Made by a program: the position numbers and the translations under genes
Assembly (NCBI GenBank): GCA_007135635.1
Contig: SLIO01000166.1
Location: 1 to 14,198 of the forward strand
Direction: 5' to 3'
DNA: 14,198 nt
Source: Methylomicrobium sp.
GTDB lineage: Bacteria; Pseudomonadota; Gammaproteobacteria; Methylococcales; Methylomonadaceae
In this document: in pieces, positions 1,826 through 10,010 of the stretch
How positions within the stretch are numbered: position 1 is the stretch's first letter
Layout of the letters: each line of letters opens with the position of its first letter
The notes under the pieces: generated by a model
What the model saw: only the letters and a program-made list of their open reading frames with translations
What the model was told of the DNA's origin: nothing
The model's database searches: none

Positions 1826-2740
1826 TTAAAACGGCCGAGACAGTCGGCGGCTTTCAATCAAGCGACCGATTCGATGGTAAAAGTCGTCGAGACTGGCGGT
1901 AAAAACAGACTGTTCCGGCAGTTGATTCGACTTGAACAAATACTGTGCACCGGTACCGCCGACCCATAATTGAATATCTTTCGGCAACGCCTCGACCAGA
2001 TGGTTTAAGTTTTGAATCATGGCTTGTTCAGGCGGTGTATTAGCGAGACTCATTACAATAACAGAAGGCTTGAGCCGGCTTCCGACGTTTAACAAGTCTT
2101 CCCATGGCAAGTCGGGACCGATGTAATAGCATTTGCAACGTTGGCTAGCGGCCAACCAACAGCTCAGCAATATTCCGAATTCGTGATGTTCTCCGGTCAT
2201 GGTCGCGAACATCACGCCGGGATTGGTTCCGGAAAATGGCTGTTCGTGATTCACCATGCTTAACACGATTCGTTTAACACAGGCGGAAAATAGATGCTCT
2301 TGAGCAATTGTCAATTTACCTTCATGCCAAAGATTACCCACTTTTTCCAAGGTCGGCAAAAGAATCTCCCGGGCATAGCTAAGAGGATCCATTGCAATCA
2401 GTGCCCGCCGGAGCAGCTCTTCGCAAACATCCATGCGAAACTCCAGCAGAGCATCGACAATCCGTTCAAAAAACAATTCTTGATTGGCATTAGGTGGATT
2501 CCGATTGGCATTTAACAAATCCTGTAGCTCATCGTTACTCAAATCTGCGATTTTGCTAATCGTAAAACCTTGCTGAGTTGCCGCCAGTAGAAGCGTCAAA
2601 CGCTCGACATCTTGCTGCGTATAAAGACGCCGGCCCTTGCTGTCCCTAACGGGGTTAACGGTTCCGTAGCGCCTTTCCCAAGCTCTGAGCGTTTCGGTGT
2701 TGATTCCTGTGAGTGAAGTCACGGTTTTTATTGTATACAT
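1826..2740 (-). CDS. MerR-family regulator with B12-binding domain, CarH/LitR-like photoreceptor
   Basis: This 304-residue protein joins an N-terminal MerR winged helix (about 1-70; ETLRAWERRYG is typical), a helical cobalamin-capping domain (about 85-165) and a Rossmann-type B12-binding domain (about 173-300). All the light-sensing residues known from Thermus CarH have counterparts. W138 followed nine residues later by E148-H149 is the Trp-x9-Glu-His cap motif. H139 matches the His that ligates cobalt after photolysis. E184-x-H186-x-x-G189 is the lower axial ligand motif. An SL (231-232) and a GG (261-262) also fit the B12 fold. In the known family, AdoCbl drives a dark tetramer that represses DNA and light disassembles it. 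The gene is divergent from a sigma-factor gene across 137 bases that hold a perfect dyad. No Shine-Dalgarno is obvious before the ATG, although the MerR alignment supports this start. Confidence 0.9.
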   Translation of the reverse strand: MYTIKTVTSLTGINTETLRAWERRYGTVNPVRDSKGRRLYTQQDVERLTLLLAATQQGFTISKIADLSNDELQDLLNANRNPPNANQELFFERIVDALLEFRMDVCEELLRRALIAMDPLSYAREILLPTLEKVGNLWHEGKLTIAQEHLFSACVKRIVLSMVNHEQPFSGTNPGVMFATMTGEHHEFGILLSCWLAASQRCKCYYIGPDLPWEDLLNVGSRLKPSVIVMSLANTPPEQAMIQNLNHLVEALPKDIQLWVGGTGAQYLFKSNQLPEQSVFTASLDDFYHRIGRLIESRRLSRPF

Positions 2741-2765: not shown

Positions 2766-2782
2766 AATGTTTGACAAACATT
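2766..2782. promoter_or_regulatory. Perfect 17-bp dyad, candidate CarH-like operator
   Basis: AATGTTTG-A-CAAACATT is a perfect inverted repeat with 8-bp arms about a single central base. It lies between the divergent regulator and sigma-factor genes and overlaps a consensus -35 hexamer. The left half-site TAATGTTT (2765-2772) recurs in direct orientation at 2794-2801. CarH-type repressors are known to cover the -35 region of the promoters they control, so this is the obvious candidate binding site. Binding itself is inference. Confidence 0.6.
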
Positions 2783-2799
2783 GTACTCAGGAGTAATGT
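2771..2799 (+). promoter_or_regulatory. Candidate sigma-70 promoter for the sigma factor operon
   Basis: A perfect -35 TTGACA (2771-2776) is followed after 17 bases by the weak -10 TAATGT (2794-2799). The strong -35 lies inside the dyad, so a bound repressor would block it. The poor -10 fits a promoter needing help or an alternative sigma factor. Confidence 0.45.
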
Positions 2800-2877: not shown

Positions 2878-4323
2878 ATGACCCAATTGAACCATTTAAT
2901 GCTAAACAATCAATACCGTTCGGGCAGTTTTCGGGCATTTTATAAGGAAACCACCATTGAAACGGATCTATATGTTTCACGCCGACCGCTCATCGACATC
3001 CTCAACGACGCTTCCGACGAAATCGAATCGGAACCTGTCGATGTCGAATTATTTGCGGAAACCGAAGAATTATCCTCATCGAATAATGCAATGACATTCA
3101 TGCAGAGTGGAGGCGACGAGTTATTAATACATCAGCAAAATGCATCGGTTTTAACCGCCGAGGAATTAACCTCGCTAGCCCAGCAGATGGAACAAAGTCG
3201 CTTGAATTTATCGCGATTGATGATTTATTCGGATTCGGGACTGTCGGTTATAGCCGGCGAATTTATTCGAGCTATCGGTGATGGCATCGACTTATCTGAG
3301 CTTATCAGAAAAAACAATCTCGACCCTTTACAAAGCGAGAATGTTGCACAGGATACCGCTAAACAGCTCGCAAGCAAATTATTGGGTTGTTTTCAGCAAG
3401 TCATCAACACCAAAGATCATCCGCATTCAAGTGCAGTATTTACCGAATGCAAGCAGTTGCTCGACGATCTTCATCTTTTACCTAATTTTCTACAACAAAT
3501 CGTCAAGGTCTTAACCTGCAGGCTCAGGGACCGAGCACTCAATGATGATGACCTGGAGTTGCTGAAATCCGCGTCGATCGAGCAACAACGAATGATTTCC
3601 GCCCGACGTGCGATGATCAGTGGCAACCTTAGGTTAGTCACTTTCATTGCACGTCAATATCACCATTCCTCGGTGCCGTTTACCGACTTGATTCAAGACG
3701 GGACTGTGGGTTTAATCAAGGCGGTTGACCGTTACGATTGGCGACGCTCGGTGCGCTTTTCCACCTATGCAATTTATTGGATCAAACAAAGCATCACTCG
3801 GGGAATGGTCAGACAGGAAAAGATGGTCCGCTTGCCATACAACATCGCGGCAAAAGCGGCCGCGGTATTTGAAACGATGAACGATTATCTGGTCAAACAC
3901 AACCAATGGCCGACCAATAAGACACTTGCCGATCTCTGCGCTTTGCCCGAAGAGGAAATCAAAGCCATCGTCGATAATTATCAACCGACCATCTCGCTCG
4001 ATAACAATATCAACGACGACGAGGATTTACCGGCGATCGTCGATTCGATAGAGCAACACCATTTTCCGCAACCGATTAATATACTAGCTAATTCGGCATT
4101 GAAAAACTGCTTGAGGAAGGCCATCGAAACGCTACCTGAGCGCGAAGCCGACATCATCAATTGCCGCTTCGGGCTCGACAGCGACACCGAAATGACGCTG
4201 CAAGACATTGCCGATCGGATGTCGTTAACGCGGGAACGGGTCCGGCAAATTCAGAACAGCGCGCTTTTAAAATTAAGAAATAAATTCAGTAGTGATTTAG
4301 TCGATTTTCTCGAACCGGGCTAA
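2878..4323 (+). CDS. Alternative sigma factor of the sigma-70 family (RpoD/RpoS-like)
   Basis: The 481-residue protein has core sigma regions 2 (about 245-316), 3 (about 324-400) and 4 (about 405-470). DLIQDGTVGLIKAVD, FSTYA and the TRERVRQIQ helix-turn-helix are diagnostic. A degenerate region 1.2 (around 91-115) resembles RpoD, but region 1.1 is absent and the first 80 or so residues are unlike any family I know. The residues that read -12 (Q304, T307) and the -35 box (TRER near 451-454) match E. coli RpoD. In the melting helix one Trp is replaced (Y300-W301 instead of Trp-Trp). It is thus probably a non-housekeeping factor with near-RpoD promoter preference. AAGGGG precedes the ATG by nine bases. 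It heads an apparent operon with hflK, hflC and ftsH and is divergent from the CarH-like gene. Confidence 0.88.
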   Translation: MTQLNHLMLNNQYRSGSFRAFYKETTIETDLYVSRRPLIDILNDASDEIESEPVDVELFAETEELSSSNNAMTFMQSGGDELLIHQQNASVLTAEELTSLAQQMEQSRLNLSRLMIYSDSGLSVIAGEFIRAIGDGIDLSELIRKNNLDPLQSENVAQDTAKQLASKLLGCFQQVINTKDHPHSSAVFTECKQLLDDLHLLPNFLQQIVKVLTCRLRDRALNDDDLELLKSASIEQQRMISARRAMISGNLRLVTFIARQYHHSSVPFTDLIQDGTVGLIKAVDRYDWRRSVRFSTYAIYWIKQSITRGMVRQEKMVRLPYNIAAKAAAVFETMNDYLVKHNQWPTNKTLADLCALPEEEIKAIVDNYQPTISLDNNINDDEDLPAIVDSIEQHHFPQPINILANSALKNCLRKAIETLPEREADIINCRFGLDSDTEMTLQDIADRMSLTRERVRQIQNSALLKLRNKFSSDLVDFLEPG

Positions 4324-4360
4324 AGCGGCCGATTGAATCGACATTGCACCGAGCAATAAA

Positions 4361-4386
4361 AGGCCGGATAAGCAATAAATCGGCCT
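4361..4386 (+). other. Small hairpin between the sigma gene and hflK
   Basis: AGGCCG (4361-4366) and CGGCCT (4381-4386) can pair across a 14-base loop in the 89-base gap. No T-run follows, so it is not a convincing terminator. The sigma gene and hflK may still be on one transcript. Confidence 0.3.
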
Positions 4387-4412
4387 CAACACACGAGTAT
4401 CAGGAGTACGCT

Positions 4413-5573
4413 ATGACCTGGAACAATAAAAAAAATGACCCAGAGGAAATGGGTGAAAATCCCAAGTCCGATTGGGAAGCTCAATTCGATAATATTTGGC
4501 GAAGCATCAATCAAAAGCCGAAAAATTTTCTTAGCCTTCATTCCAAATCCCTATTCACTTACTCAAGCGCCGCGTTGTTAATTGCCTGGGCGGGCAGCGG
4601 CGTTTATATCGTGGACCAAGGCAACCGAGGCGTAGAAACCCGCTTCGGCGCCTATCAAGCCACCACGATGCCCGGCCCGCATTGGCATTTACCCTTCCCA
4701 ATAGAAGATGTGTCTATCGTCAACGTCGAAAAACAACGCTTCATTGAAATCGGTTATCAAACCGGCAGCCGCCAACTCGGCAGTGGATCGGACTTACCCG
4801 AATCGCTGATGCTAACCAAGGATGAAAACATTATCAGTGTTAGGCTGGCCATTCAATATCAAATCAAAGATGCCAGAGATTATTTATTTAATGTCAAAAA
4901 TGCCGAAGCCACGCTTAAGCAGGTCACCGAAAGTATCGAACGGGGCGTGATCGGCAAGAATAATATGGACTTCATCCTGACCGAAGGTCGCAGCCAAATC
5001 GCCACGGCAATCAAGGATCAGGTGCAGGAAGCGATGGACCAATACCAAACCGGCTTGCGCATCGCTAGTGTCAATTTACAGGATGCCCAACCTCCCGAAG
5101 AAGTTCAGAATGCTTTCGAAGATGCAATCCGAGCACGTGAGGACAAACAAAGACTGATCAATGAAGCTGAAGCTTATGCCAACGAAGTCATTCCAAAAGC
5201 TCGAGGTGCAGCCGCCCGTTTGATTCAGGAGGCCGAAGGCTACGAGGCTCAAGTGATCGCCAGAGCAACCGGCGAGACACAACGCTTCGATCAATTACTG
5301 GTCCAATATGAAAAAGCGCCCAAAATAACTCGTAAACGTTTGTATCTTGAAGCCAAGGAAAAACTTTACAGCAATACCAATAAGGTGATCGTGGCGGTTG
5401 AAAACGGTAATAATATGTTTTATATGCCGATCGACTCGATGAATAAAAATGGTGATCAAAAAGCCGGTAGCCCTAGCCTAAATTCGATTGCGCAAATAGA
5501 AAAAGCCGCCCAGACCGACGCTCGAAAGCCAATCCATGCATCAACTATCCGTTCCAGTAGGAGCAGACTATGA
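4413..5573 (+). CDS. hflK: FtsH modulator HflK (SPFH/band-7 protein)
   Basis: HflK and HflC assemble into a large periplasmic cage around FtsH hexamers and limit its access to membrane substrates. The predicted 386-residue protein has the usual order: a polar N tail with DWEAQFDNIW (20-29), one membrane segment (about 47-67), an SPFH/band-7 domain starting at GNRGVETRFG, and a long Ala/Glu-rich coiled-coil arm (about 225-300). The tail after about residue 340 is polar and low in complexity. AGGAG (4402-4406) six bases before the ATG at 4413 fixes the start; an in-frame ATG 23 codons upstream would add a sequence unlike the family. Its TGA overlaps the ATG of hflC, so the two are translationally coupled. 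Confidence 0.93.
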   Translation: MTWNNKKNDPEEMGENPKSDWEAQFDNIWRSINQKPKNFLSLHSKSLFTYSSAALLIAWAGSGVYIVDQGNRGVETRFGAYQATTMPGPHWHLPFPIEDVSIVNVEKQRFIEIGYQTGSRQLGSGSDLPESLMLTKDENIISVRLAIQYQIKDARDYLFNVKNAEATLKQVTESIERGVIGKNNMDFILTEGRSQIATAIKDQVQEAMDQYQTGLRIASVNLQDAQPPEEVQNAFEDAIRAREDKQRLINEAEAYANEVIPKARGAAARLIQEAEGYEAQVIARATGETQRFDQLLVQYEKAPKITRKRLYLEAKEKLYSNTNKVIVAVENGNNMFYMPIDSMNKNGDQKAGSPSLNSIAQIEKAAQTDARKPIHASTIRSSRSRL

Positions 5574-6436
5574 ATTCTTTGTCTAAACAATTATTAGTTC
5601 CCATCGGTTTATCGGTGCTGATTATTGGATATATGTCGGTGTTTTATGTTGGCGAAAGTGAAAAAGCGATCAAATTTCGCTTGGGCGAAATCGTCGGCTC
5701 CGATTATCGGCCTGGCCTTCATTTAAAACTGCCGTTGATCAATAACACCAGCGCATTCGATGCCCGAATTCAAACGCTTAATGCCAAATCGGAGCGGTTT
5801 CTGACTTCGGAAAAGAAAAATGTGATTGTCGACTCCTTTGCCAAATGGAAAATTGGCGATGTCGGGCTGTTTTATACGACGGTCAGCGGCGATTCTTATC
5901 AAGCCAACCTTCGACTCGATCAAATCATGAAAGATGCGATGCGCGGCGAATTTGGTTTGAGAACGATTAAAGAGCTGGTTTCCGAGGATAGGGGCAATTT
6001 ACGCAAGGTGCTGATGGAAAAATTAAGCCCGGTCGCTGAACAATACGGCATCGAGCTGGTCGATATCCGCATCAAGCGCATCGATCTGCCTGACGAAGTC
6101 AGCAGCTCGGTATTTCGCAGAATGGAAGCCGAACGCGAAAGGGTTGCACGAGAATTCCGCTCACAAGGCGCGGAACTTGCAGAACAAATTAGCGCACAAG
6201 CCGATAAAGAACGCGAAATTATTTTGGCTAATGCTTATCGAGAAGCCGAACAAATACGAGGACGCGGCGATGCCAAGTCGGCCGAGATCTATGCGGTCAG
6301 CCATGGCAAAAATGAAGAGTTCTATGCATTCCACCGAAGCTTGAACGCCTATCAAAAATCGTTCGAAAATACCCAGGATACTCTGTTATTGGAACCTAAA
6401 TCGGATTTCTTCAGGTATTTTTCGAAAGAAGAATGA
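5570..6436 (+). CDS. hflC: FtsH modulator HflC (SPFH/band-7 protein)
   Basis: This is the partner of HflK in the HflKC cage. The 288-residue protein has a single N-terminal membrane anchor (about 7-27), then the band-7 domain (GESEKAIKFRLGEIVG onward, PGLHLKLP typical), and a charged helical arm with FRRMEAERERVAREFRSQG (about 183-201). It is shorter than E. coli HflC, which carries an extra insertion, but similar in length to many proteobacterial homologues. The ATG overlaps the hflK stop (ATGA), with AGGAG six bases upstream. Only 35 bases separate it from ftsH, supporting one operon and one complex. Confidence 0.93.
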   Translation: MNSLSKQLLVPIGLSVLIIGYMSVFYVGESEKAIKFRLGEIVGSDYRPGLHLKLPLINNTSAFDARIQTLNAKSERFLTSEKKNVIVDSFAKWKIGDVGLFYTTVSGDSYQANLRLDQIMKDAMRGEFGLRTIKELVSEDRGNLRKVLMEKLSPVAEQYGIELVDIRIKRIDLPDEVSSSVFRRMEAERERVAREFRSQGAELAEQISAQADKEREIILANAYREAEQIRGRGDAKSAEIYAVSHGKNEEFYAFHRSLNAYQKSFENTQDTLLLEPKSDFFRYFSKEE

Positions 6437-6471
6437 TATCCTCATACATCTCTAAAGGGGAGAAAATTTAA

Positions 6472-8370
6472 ATGAAATCAAATGCACTTAAAATCGTTAT
6501 CTGGATAGTGGTGGGGCTTACGTTATTCACGGCATTTAGCCGAATGGGCCCGCAAAACGATAGTAACTATGCCTTGTCGTACTCGGACTTCATCGAAGAC
6601 ATACGAGCCGGCGTAGTCGCTGAAGTCACTATCAACGGCGATGAAATCAACGGCCGTAGACGTAACGGGGAACGGTTTATGACCTATAACCCCAATGACG
6701 CCAAAATGATCGACGAATTGTTGGAATACGGCGTCAAAATCAAAGTCGCATCGCCGCCGAAACAATCAATGCTGATGCAGATATTTGTCTCATGGGCACC
6801 GATGTTACTATTGATCGCAGTCTGGGTTTATTTCTTTCGCAAGCAGCAAGGCGGCGGAATGGGCGGCCAGATGAATTTCGGTAAAAGCAAGGCTAAATTG
6901 CTGGAGGAAAACCAAATCAAGGTCAAGTTCACTGATGTTGCCGGCGTAGAAGAAGCCAAGGAAGACGTCGTGGAAATGGTGGATTTTCTGAGAGACCCCG
7001 CCAAGTATGAATTCCTAGGCGGTCAGATACCCCGCGGCGTTCTGATGGTGGGTCCTCCGGGAACCGGCAAAACATTGCTGGCGCGAGCCATAGCAGGCGA
7101 AGCGGGTGTGCCGTTCTTCTCGATATCCGGTTCGGATTTCGTCGAAATGTTCGTCGGTGTGGGTGCTTCTCGCGTTCGCGACATGTTCGAACAAGCCAAG
7201 AAACGCGCGCCTTGCATCATTTTCATCGACGAAATCGATGCGGTCGGCCGTCATCGTGGCAACGGTATGGGCGGCGGTAATGATGAGCGCGAACAAACCC
7301 TGAACCAATTGCTTGTAGAAATGGACGGCTTCAACGGCAACGAAGGTATCATCGTGATAGCGGCAACCAACCGTGCCGATGTGCTCGATAAAGCCTTGCT
7401 GAGACCTGGCCGATTCGACCGTCAAGTCACGGTCGGCTTACCCGATATCAAGGGCCGCGAGCAGATTCTTGGCGTCCATATCAAAAAAGTACCGCAAGCC
7501 GCCGATGTCAACATCAACGATCTTGCCAGAGGCACGCCCGGATTTTCCGGCGCGGAACTAGCGAACTTGATTAATGAAGCCGCTTTATTCGCTGCGAGGA
7601 AAAACAAACGCGAAGTGAACATGGAAGACCTCGATAAAGCCCGTGACAAGATGCTCATGGGGGCCGAAAGACGAAGCATGATGATGCGAGAAGAAGATAA
7701 ATTGATGACCGCCTATCATGAAGCCGGTCATGCTATCGTCGGACGCATCGTTCCGGAGCACGATCCGGTCTACAAAGTCAGTATCATGCCCCGCGGTGGT
7801 GCGCTAGGTATCACGATGTTCCTGCCTGAACGGGATTCCTATAGCGCCAGCCGGGATAAGTTGGAAAGCCAAATCGCCAGCTTATTTGGCGGACGCGTTG
7901 CCGAGGAAATTATTTACGGCAAAAACAAAGTGACCACCGGCGCGTCCAATGACATCGAGCGCGCCACTCAATTGGCCCGCAACATGGTGACTAAATGGGG
8001 ACTCTCCGATCGCCTCGGCCCGATGGATTACGGCCCGGATCAGAATCAAGGCTATTTCGGACCGCAAAATAAAGCGATGTCGGAACAAATGGCGCGATTG
8101 ATCGATGATGAGATTCGCTCGCTGGTCGACAAAAACTATGAGCGCGCCAGGCAGATTCTCACCGACCGCATGGACATCCTGCATAACATGGCGGAAGCCT
8201 TGATGTTGTGGGAAACCATCGATAAGTTTCAAATCGATGATCTGATGAAAGGCAAAAAAATCGCTCCGCCGATACCGGAAGATGATAACAAGGACGAGCA
8301 ACCACCTGTCTCCCTGACACCGGATACAACGAGCGGCGGTAATATCGGTCAAAGCGGCCTGGCAACCTAG
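6472..8370 (+). CDS. ftsH: ATP-dependent zinc metalloprotease FtsH
   Basis: FtsH is a hexameric inner-membrane AAA+ protease that degrades misassembled membrane proteins and short-lived regulators such as sigma-32. The 632 residues show two membrane segments (about 5-24 and 103-122) around a periplasmic domain and Walker A GPPGTGKT (194-201). They also show a pore loop FVG (227-230), Walker B IIFIDE (249-254), second-region-of-homology arginines (RPGRFDR, 311-317), zinc site HEAGH (416-420) and a distal Asp ligand (SND, 494). All key residues are intact. GGGGAG precedes the ATG by nine bases. Proteobacterial ftsH usually sits next to rlmE rather than hflKC, so this may be a second copy; the window cannot show that. 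Confidence 0.97.
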
Positions 8371-8394
8371 CCGCTGTCAACGTCCTCCTCTATA

Positions 8395-8433
8395 AAGTCC
8401 TCCTGTTCGGTTCTTTCAGGAGGACTTCTTTTT
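8395..8433 (+). terminator. Intrinsic terminator after ftsH
   Basis: AAGTCCTCCTG (8395-8405) pairs with CAGGAGGACTT (8417-8427) in a perfect 11-bp stem with an 11-base loop, followed by C and five T's. It ends the sigma-hflK-hflC-ftsH unit. The next start codon lies only 12 bases past the T-run. A second copy of GTCCTCCT at 8382-8389 could compete with the 8397-8404 copy for the same 3' arm. Confidence 0.85.
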
Positions 8434-8943: not shown

Positions 8944-9108
8944 ATATACTTCGCACGATCACATTTTCTGGTAAGCTCACGCCTCTTTTGTCCGGTAGCT
9001 GCGTTGCGAAAACAGTTACATAGCTTGCTATGCGCCTGTTTTCGCGCCTTGCCACCGAACAAAATAGCATTGCCATAAAAGCCGAAAACATGACCATGCG
9101 AAGTATAT
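8944..9108. repeat. Nested 165-bp palindromic element running into the yfcH start
   Basis: Four nested inverted repeats share one centre. The outer arms are a perfect 12 bp (ATATACTTCGCA at 8944-8955, TGCGAAGTATAT at 9097-9108). The next are 14 bp with two mismatches (8986-8999 and 9051-9064). Then come a perfect 10 bp (GCGAAAACAG at 9006-9015, CTGTTTTCGC at 9036-9045) and a central 6-bp hairpin (CATAGC-TT-GCTATG, 9019-9032). The right outer arm overlaps the first codons of the epimerase gene. It looks like a MITE or REP-type element; no transposase is present. Confidence 0.7.
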
Positions 9109-10010
9109 TACTAACAGGCGGCACCGGTTTTATCGGCACCCTTTTAACCAGACAATTAAGCGGTCAAGGTCACCAGCTGACGGTACTTAGCCGGAACCCC
9201 GAACGCGTACCGTTAATTTGCGGCCCTGACATAAAAGGCCTGGGCAGCTTCGACGATATCCGCCCAGACCAAAGATTCGACGCAATCATTAATCTGGCCG
9301 GTGCGCCTATTTTCGACAAAAGATGGACCGAGGCACAAAAACGCATCATTTGGGACAGCCGCGTCTTATTGACTGATCGTTTGTTTGAAACGATGAAACG
9401 ATTGGCCGTAAAACCGGAAGTCTTGATTAGTGGGTCGGCGATAGGCTATTACGGAAACCAAGGCGACACGGTTCTCGATGAAGAGACGCCCGCCAAAGAC
9501 GATTTTTCACATCGATTATGCTCGGCCTGGGAAAACAGTGCGCTTCAAGCCGAGCAGCTAGATATTAGAGTTTGTTTAATACGAACCGGTTTGGTTCTAG
9601 GGCACGGAGGGGGACTGCTACAACGTATGCTCCTCCCCTTCAAGCTTGGCTTGGGCGGCCAAATCGGTCCCGGCAACCAATGGATGTCTTGGATACACCG
9701 GCAAGATTGGATCAATATCGCCTGCGCAATGTTGAACGACGACTCAATGCGCGGCCCCTACAATGCTACCGCGCCTAACCCCGTTACCAATCGCGAGTTC
9801 ACCGAAACGCTAGCCGCCTGCTTGAAACGTCCTGCCCTACTACCGATTCCCGCTTGGGCTTTGAAGCTACTGCTCGGTGAAATGTCGGAACTAGTACTTG
9901 GCAGCCAACGCGTCTTGCCATTAAGACTGATTAATGAACTTGGCTTCAGTTTTGAATATAACGACTTGCAATCGGCTTTTACCGAGGCTCTGTCATCCCA
10001 CTGTGATTGA
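9096..10010 (+). CDS. YfcH-type SDR family epimerase/NAD(P)-binding protein
   Basis: This 304-residue protein belongs to the TIGR01777/YfcH group of atypical short-chain dehydrogenase relatives, whose substrate is not established. It starts with the nucleotide-binding loop GGTGFIG (8-14), followed by NLAGAPI (66-72), the family hallmark SAIGYYG (114-120) and a C-x-x-WEN motif (142-147). It ends in a DUF1731-like domain with GEMSELVLGSQRVLP. I placed the start at the ATG at 9096, one residue before the usual beta strand; an ATG at 9090 is equally possible. Neither has a clear Shine-Dalgarno. A longer frame from 9030 would add 20 or more residues encoded by the palindromic repeat and is unlikely. 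It is convergent with metG. Confidence 0.9.
   Translation: MRSILLTGGTGFIGTLLTRQLSGQGHQLTVLSRNPERVPLICGPDIKGLGSFDDIRPDQRFDAIINLAGAPIFDKRWTEAQKRIIWDSRVLLTDRLFETMKRLAVKPEVLISGSAIGYYGNQGDTVLDEETPAKDDFSHRLCSAWENSALQAEQLDIRVCLIRTGLVLGHGGGLLQRMLLPFKLGLGGQIGPGNQWMSWIHRQDWINIACAMLNDDSMRGPYNATAPNPVTNREFTETLAACLKRPALLPIPAWALKLLLGEMSELVLGSQRVLPLRLINELGFSFEYNDLQSAFTEALSSHCD

Follow-up and report, generated by a model that had tools for sequence, protein, structure and literature searches.

Gene order at the locus and identity of the sigma factor

The stretch of DNA analyzed here (the window; 14,198 nt, contig SLIO01000166.1, C75 of the 2.78-Mb, 79% complete genome of Methylomicrobium sp., order Methylococcales) carries a gene for an alternative sigma factor that is followed on the same strand by paralogs of hflK, hflC, and ftsH (Table 1). 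The sigma factor and FtsH are a conserved unit across the order, beyond a local accident of gene order. The genes in the window are mgtE and a MerR/B12 regulator (both on the reverse strand), sigma, hflK, hflC, ftsH, mem146, and a TIGR01777/YfcH-type gene (all on the forward strand), metG (reverse strand), and a pfkB-family kinase gene. As given in the preliminary description of this DNA, the genes from sigma to ftsH run on one strand with gaps of exactly 89, -4, and 35 nt and end in a single terminator, a hairpin spanning positions 8396 to 8433 with the stem AGTCCTCCTG (8396 to 8405) and CAGGAGGACT (8417 to 8426) followed by TCTTTTT; the hairpin scan did not list it because its loop is 11 nt long and the scan covered loops of 3 to 8 nt. 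The probable start of hflK is the ATG at position 4413, the TTG at 4344 being merely the first mechanical start, and a purine-rich, Shine-Dalgarno-like stretch precedes the start of each of hflK, hflC, and ftsH.

Table 1. Features of the sigma-ftsH cluster and its surroundings in the window
Feature	Positions	Strand	Evidence or remark
CarH/LitR-type regulator, MerR DNA-binding and B12-binding domains	1826..2740	-	Divergent from sigma
Operator-promoter block of the sigma gene	2767..2799	+	Alignment of 13 carH-sigma intergenic regions
Alternative sigma-70 family factor, not of the extracytoplasmic function (ECF) type, RpoD/RpoS-like regions 2 to 4, 481 aa	2878..4323	+	
hflK paralog (FtsH modulator)	4413..5573	+	TIGR01933, 321.9 bits (cutoff 159.4), scored on the longer frame from 4344
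hflC paralog (FtsH modulator)	5570..6436	+	TIGR01932, 275.5 bits (cutoff 134.4)
ftsH paralog	6472..8370	+	TIGR01241, 854.5 bits (cutoff 600); Walker A GPPGTGKT, HEAGH
Conserved RNA element, TCCTCCTCTAT followed by intrinsic-terminator hairpin and U-tract	8383..8433	+	
mem146, small hydrophobic protein, 146 aa	8446..8886	+	Unnamed family
TIGR01777/YfcH-type epimerase-oxidoreductase	9030..10010	+	346.9 bits (cutoff 207.35); recurs beside mem146

Among named records, the nearest to the window sigma factor (90 to 91%) come from Methylotuvimicrobium buryatense 5G, 'Methylomicrobium sp. wino1', and a gammaproteobacterial metagenome-assembled genome (MAG). The first of these, a laboratory methanotroph, holds the locus L033. 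Its regions 2 and 4 match PF04542 and PF04545 above the cutoffs, and region 3 scores 23.8 against the 25.3 set for PF04539. The NCBIfam scores are 212.7 for RpoD (cutoff 555), 205 for RpoS (378.7), 126.2 for RpoH (323.1), and 223.9 for MzaA (800); together with the tree, these curated scores rule out assignment of the protein to RpoH, RpoS, or RpoD. ECF sigma factors are short proteins with only regions 2 and 4, and an ECF assignment (the LitS type) was rejected as well, given the length of 481 aa and an alignment with RpoD that spans regions 2 to 4 with no gap at region 3. A further gene resembling sigma factors, the third in this genome, lies on contig C401 and is likely rpoH, judging from its size.

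Trees were built on subsets comprising 18 clade A and 20 clade B sigma factors and 17 and 19 of the respective cluster FtsH proteins. Clade A, which includes the window protein and those of Methylotuvimicrobium, Methylicorpusculum, Methylomonas, and others, has a support of 93/84, and clade B only 82/47. A 99/99 branch sets both clades apart from RpoD plus RpoS; given the great length of the RpoH branch, the two clades may or may not share a common origin.

With MzaA as the best NCBIfam match of the sigma factor, a PADLOC MzaA match over residues 241 to 477, and FtsH matching the PADLOC IetA models via its AAA part, the cluster could be taken for a defense system with an MzaA-like sigma factor or for a mobile stress island, which we consider extremely unlikely. 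The MzaA score lies far under its cutoff and the PADLOC match is limited to the conserved sigma core, results that rule out the Mza assignment; HflK, HflC, and mem146 have no PADLOC match; mgtE and metG flank the cluster likewise in three named genomes of the genus; and the sigma factor occurs in one order only (plus one MAG labeled Nitrospinales) in searches that left plasmid and phage collections outside.

Conservation of the sigma-FtsH pair

The subfamily was detected in 152 of the 311 genomes of the order to which a profile of 20 of these sigma factors was applied. In a class-wide sample of 369 genomes, which held few members of the order, only two members of the genus (∼471 bits) scored above the RpoD level, the next best being a 637-aa RpoD-like frame with 307.6 bits. 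The best 120 matches listed in a protein search were mostly from Methylococcales or unnamed records, along with the Nitrospinales-labeled MAG. The neighborhood survey covered 99 sigma loci with flanks, a sample of the listed places made up of the first 20 rows, approximately every second further clade B row, and the majority of those clade A rows that come from beyond the genus. In 95 of these 99 loci, ftsH lies downstream of the sigma gene on the same strand, which bears out the conserved linkage envisaged in the preliminary description; three (L238, L239, and L278) reach a contig edge 74 to 215 nt past the sigma gene, and the remaining one (L257) lacks ftsH. One of the 99 loci (L253, genome G665) has a broken sigma gene. 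Four genomes (G574, G579, G566, and G570) hold, besides a carH-linked copy of the cluster, an extra sigma-hflK-hflC-ftsH copy with no adjacent carH (L275, L279, L280, and L282, respectively). No previously described system with this layout was found among the listed matches in open-license papers, in agreement with the earlier statement to that effect.

The FtsH of the cluster has the AAA module, the M41 motif HEAGH, and a score above the curated cutoff, and it is a paralog that exists beside the standard copy. It separates in the tree from standard FtsH with a support of 98/88, and a relative in the genus (G001) also holds the standard rrmJ-ftsH-glmM-tpiA and hfq-hflX-hflK-hflC loci. Two groups can be told apart among the cluster FtsH proteins, A (100/99) and B (100/100), with the L250 protein outside both, and this split parallels the two groups of sampled sigma factors. 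Because both trees show these matching groups, the sigma factor and its own FtsH look to have been inherited together, with FtsH sometimes retained alone: three FtsH proteins not known to adjoin a sigma gene (that of G020, the second copy of G015, and an extra copy of G006) group in or next to the cluster FtsH.

HflK and HflC have the SPFH domain and score above the curated cutoffs, and their genes are present in 33 of the 40 clade A loci versus 2 of the 59 clade B loci, with remnants in L194 and L272. Within the six genomes of the Methylotuvimicrobium group, both genes are full length in four (G000, G001, G002, and G004), and pieces of hflC are all that is left of the pair in the other two (G003 and G005); ftsH remains 97 to 98% identical within the genus, also where hflKC is broken. 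HflKC is thus an optional, dispensable component, since the sigma gene and ftsH stay where it is broken or missing; the locus survey and the genomes of the genus rule it out as an essential part, and its portrayal as the integral gatekeeper of the protease is not supported.

Two genomes keep one partner of the pair. Locus L257 (G045) has no ftsH downstream of its sigma gene, although 4.3 kb of contig remain there. Locus L291 (G020), which was retrieved for its ftsH and left out of the count of sigma loci, encodes a cluster-type FtsH (78% identical) with no sigma gene in the fetched 13 kb, and no sigma factor of the subfamily was found in the G020 genome at the thresholds used. Neither protein, therefore, strictly needs its partner. 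Such separations, along with the coming and going of HflKC, would be expected if a light-regulated promoter simply co-expressed a sigma factor and a useful protease that do not act on each other; we regard this as possible but somewhat doubtful, as the pair is kept even where HflKC or an adjacent carH is missing, suggesting selection on the pair itself.

Evidence for a proposed control by light

The cluster is probably a light-inducible stress/membrane-protection module of methanotrophs in which FtsH acts mainly as an effector. In the dark, the CarH/LitR-type regulator with coenzyme B12 would sit on an operator overlapping the -35 box and repress the sigma gene, as the motifs described below and the biology of CarH suggest. 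Blue-green light would break down the cofactor and release the repressor, whereupon a single transcript would carry sigma, hflK, hflC, and ftsH; the sigma factor would steer RNA polymerase to genes of photo-oxidative protection, and the FtsH paralog, aided by HflKC where that is kept, would clear photodamaged proteins from the membranes. Methanotroph cells are packed with internal membranes, for which such clearance would be important. FtsH may also shorten the lifetime of the sigma factor and so limit the response, as a secondary step. This interpretation rests on the conserved linkage, the paralogy, the matching groups, the B12 motifs, the promoter block, and the stress-type neighbors.

The regulator matches PF13411 and PF02607 above the cutoffs and PF02310 below (23.6 versus 32.1). 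It carries the motif Wx9EH (WHEGKLTIAQEH) and the motif ExHx2Gx41S..GG, read as EHHEFG..S..GG, and has SLA at the published SxV/T position (Ala in place of Val/Thr). Wx9EH and ExHxxG are given as signatures of B12-binding CarH in a review (PMC8156234). Both Wx9EH and E/DxHxxG are present in all 41 distinct CarH-type proteins of clade A, and a divergent carH gene is found at 35 of 40 clade A loci. The protein is classed here as CarH/LitR-type, not as a CarH equivalog, and is predicted to bind adenosylcobalamin and to release DNA in a light-dependent manner.

The 13 aligned carH-sigma intergenic regions share a conserved block, TTTGACAAACATTGTAC..GTAA, which in the window comprises the palindrome ATGTTTGACAAACAT, TTGTAC, a -35 element TTGACA (2771 to 2776), and a -10-like TAATGT (2794 to 2799) at a spacing of 17 nt. 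The pattern TTTTGT-N8-17-TTGAC, picked after the sequences had been seen, occurs upstream of the sigma gene in 39 of 48 clade A and 39 of 59 clade B regions, sets that contain near-duplicates, against means of 0.15 (A) and 0.4 (B) and maxima of 2 in dinucleotide shuffles. A LitR site overlapping a -35 box has been described (PMC9758184). A further operator-like sequence with one mismatch is common to G036 and G010 (L144 and L145).

Several observations weigh against the light-inducible module. The regulator scores 129.1 bits against the NCBIfam CarH equivalog cutoff of 400, and the published 11-bp CarH repeat nAnnTnnACAn is no better represented in the window intergenic region than in shuffles, of which 392 of 1,000 were as good for 3 repeats and 119 of 1,000 for 4. 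The post hoc choice of the promoter pattern also counts here, as do the unpaired loci of G045 and G020. In clade B, eight CarH-like homologs (29 to 31% identity) have no ExHxxG, and light sensing there may therefore differ; half-sites of the TGTACA type are rarer upstream of the sigma gene (6 of 59 regions, shuffle mean 12.6); and the sigma-ftsH gap often measures 100 to 310 nt, which makes co-transcription less certain. No target promoters of the sigma factor were identified. A search of 11 genomes with the operator pattern, allowing 3 mismatches, was uninformative as to a CarH regulon, with 460 matches versus 412 for the reversed pattern. Of the light/B12 switch proposed in the preliminary description, the B12 motifs and the operator-promoter block support the general assignment, while the CarH repeat and the equivalog score do not. 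As a separate observation, at two clade B loci (L226 and L245) a CarH-like B12/MerR protein (29 to 30% identity, no ExHxxG) is encoded convergently behind ftsH.

Downstream elements, neighbors, and possible roles

The ftsH terminator is one end of an element of ∼50 nt that consists of TCCTCCTCTAT, the hairpin, and the U-tract. In 29 aligned copies (34 distinct sequences less a false match in L035 and five near-identical ones, plus the window copy), the 11-nt head is near-invariant and the stem varies, with 5 of 7 predicted stem pairs changed on both sides; since the stems slide against each other when aligned, the consensus energy comes out weak (-1.24 kcal/mol). A covariance model found the element in 133 of the 311 genomes, as a single copy in 129; the sigma factor is also present in 121 of these 133 and absent from 12, counts uncorrected for relatedness. 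No Rfam family matched at the gathering score, the weak matches being to eukaryotic or viral families only. The element may act as a small RNA or as an attenuator.

Among 20 further copies with flanks, mem146 lies just downstream in 17, its start ∼57 to 81 nt past the CCTCCT motif, and yfcH alone was detected in the other 3. The 17 mem146-linked copies have yfcH divergent upstream in 14 cases, a lipocalin gene downstream in 7, and, as a count uncontrolled by shuffles, LitR-like sequences of the kind TTTTGTACATGTTTTGTACA..TTGACA upstream in 9. The element usually precedes mem146 directly, even with ftsH located elsewhere. For the mem146 protein, Pfam, NCBIfam, PADLOC, and PHROGs yielded no match; the named ones among its 119 homologs are from Methylococcales or unclassified Gammaproteobacteria. 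The CcsR small RNAs carry the motif CCUCCUCCC. In Rhodobacter, CcsR1 to CcsR4 are part of the photo-oxidative stress response (PMC8307010).

By resemblance, the neighbors in relatives would place the module in a regulon for light or photo-oxidative stress. Genes for lipocalins and epimerase-like proteins also occur in LitR and singlet-oxygen regulons, and at L218 (clade B) a lipocalin gene and a mem146 homolog lie upstream of sigma. At L257 of G045, the CarH-sigma pair is followed, in place of ftsH, by genes for FAD amine-oxidase-like, DUF1365, CMAS, and chalcone-isomerase-like proteins, of which the CMAS gene presumably corresponds to ufaM. This set of CMAS/UfaM, FAD oxidoreductase, and DUF1365 genes recalls the LitR loci of Pseudomonas, one of which carries ufaM, an FAD-dependent oxidoreductase, and a photolyase (PMC9758184), and the furan fatty acid genes of Rhodobacter. 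There, the DUF1365-containing protein UfaO participates in making furan fatty acids, a pathway linked to singlet oxygen, and the genes RSP1087-1091 form an operon for these acids, which give protection against singlet oxygen (PMC7380195). In the passages covered, neither FtsH nor an RpoD-like sigma factor is described at such loci, and the terms "lipocalin" and "DUF1365" do not appear in PMC9758184.

If the FtsH paralog chiefly degraded its own sigma factor and thereby ended the response, in the manner known for FtsH and sigma-32 of E. coli, the conserved pairing and parallel groups of the two proteins would be natural, and so might be the hydrophobic C termini (-FL or -CL) of 57 of the 59 clade B sigma factors, compared with -FLDGE of RpoD in five genomes inspected and FLDDD in the only sigma factor with no adjacent FtsH (L257). 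Degrons of LpxC and lambda CII for FtsH are C-terminal with nonpolar ends (PMC8138137). However, clade A, to which the window belongs, has mostly FLEP-type, nonhydrophobic tails; the FL end may be just the normal end of region 4; G020 has a clade A type FtsH and no sigma factor, and G045 a sigma factor and no neighboring FtsH; and the sigma-32 precedent cannot be transferred by homology, as this sigma factor is RpoD/RpoS-like and not RpoH-like. We therefore judge this feedback unlikely as the chief function. A role of FtsH as an effector in light-stressed membranes fits the data at least as well as sigma degradation and is ranked first, with feedback second, because of the FLEP-type tails of clade A and the retention of the clade A type FtsH in G020.

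Several known systems resemble parts of this arrangement. In E. coli, rpoH and ftsH are unlinked, and the LitS protein of Streptomyces is an ECF factor. The likeness to the E. coli pair lies in a stress sigma factor tied to FtsH (RpoH is listed as an FtsH substrate in PMC8138137), with degradation only proposed here and a sigma factor that is not RpoH. The likeness to LitR-LitS lies in a B12-dependent MerR-type photoregulator placed over a sigma gene: LitR controls litS and then light-induced genes, promoting litS on illumination (PMC12705666), whereas the cluster would involve dark repression of an RpoD/RpoS-like sigma gene that is followed by an FtsH paralog. LitR-driven sigma circuits are thus known, and the cluster is a variation on them. 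Pseudomonas aeruginosa clone C has, in addition to its standard ftsH, an accessory copy connected with stress tolerance; this FtsH2 is a horizontally acquired xenolog on a tLST island with a shorter linker (PMC10850787), whereas the cluster FtsH is a long-standing, sigma-paired paralog with a glycine-rich linker, as read from its sequence.

A more elaborate and quite improbable version would be a self-limiting circuit unlike that of sigma-32, in which a B12 photoreceptor governs an RpoD-like sigma factor and a private FtsH that both repairs membranes and degrades the sigma factor, with a CCUCCUC-bearing small RNA from the terminator as a post-transcriptional layer.

FtsH-based repair of photodamage in cyanobacteria and chloroplasts offers a parallel to the favored effector role, and methane oxidation in surface waters responds to light. 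The literature on light and methanotrophs yielded nothing specific among the matches listed. The present data suggest that methane oxidizers that are not phototrophic have a conserved response to light with a second FtsH at its core. A light-controlled membrane-protection module, with its sigma factor in 152 of the 311 genomes of the order, could bear on the effect of light on methane oxidation, and the cluster would offer a natural, gene-linked sigma-protease pair for the control of a non-heat-shock sigma factor by FtsH.

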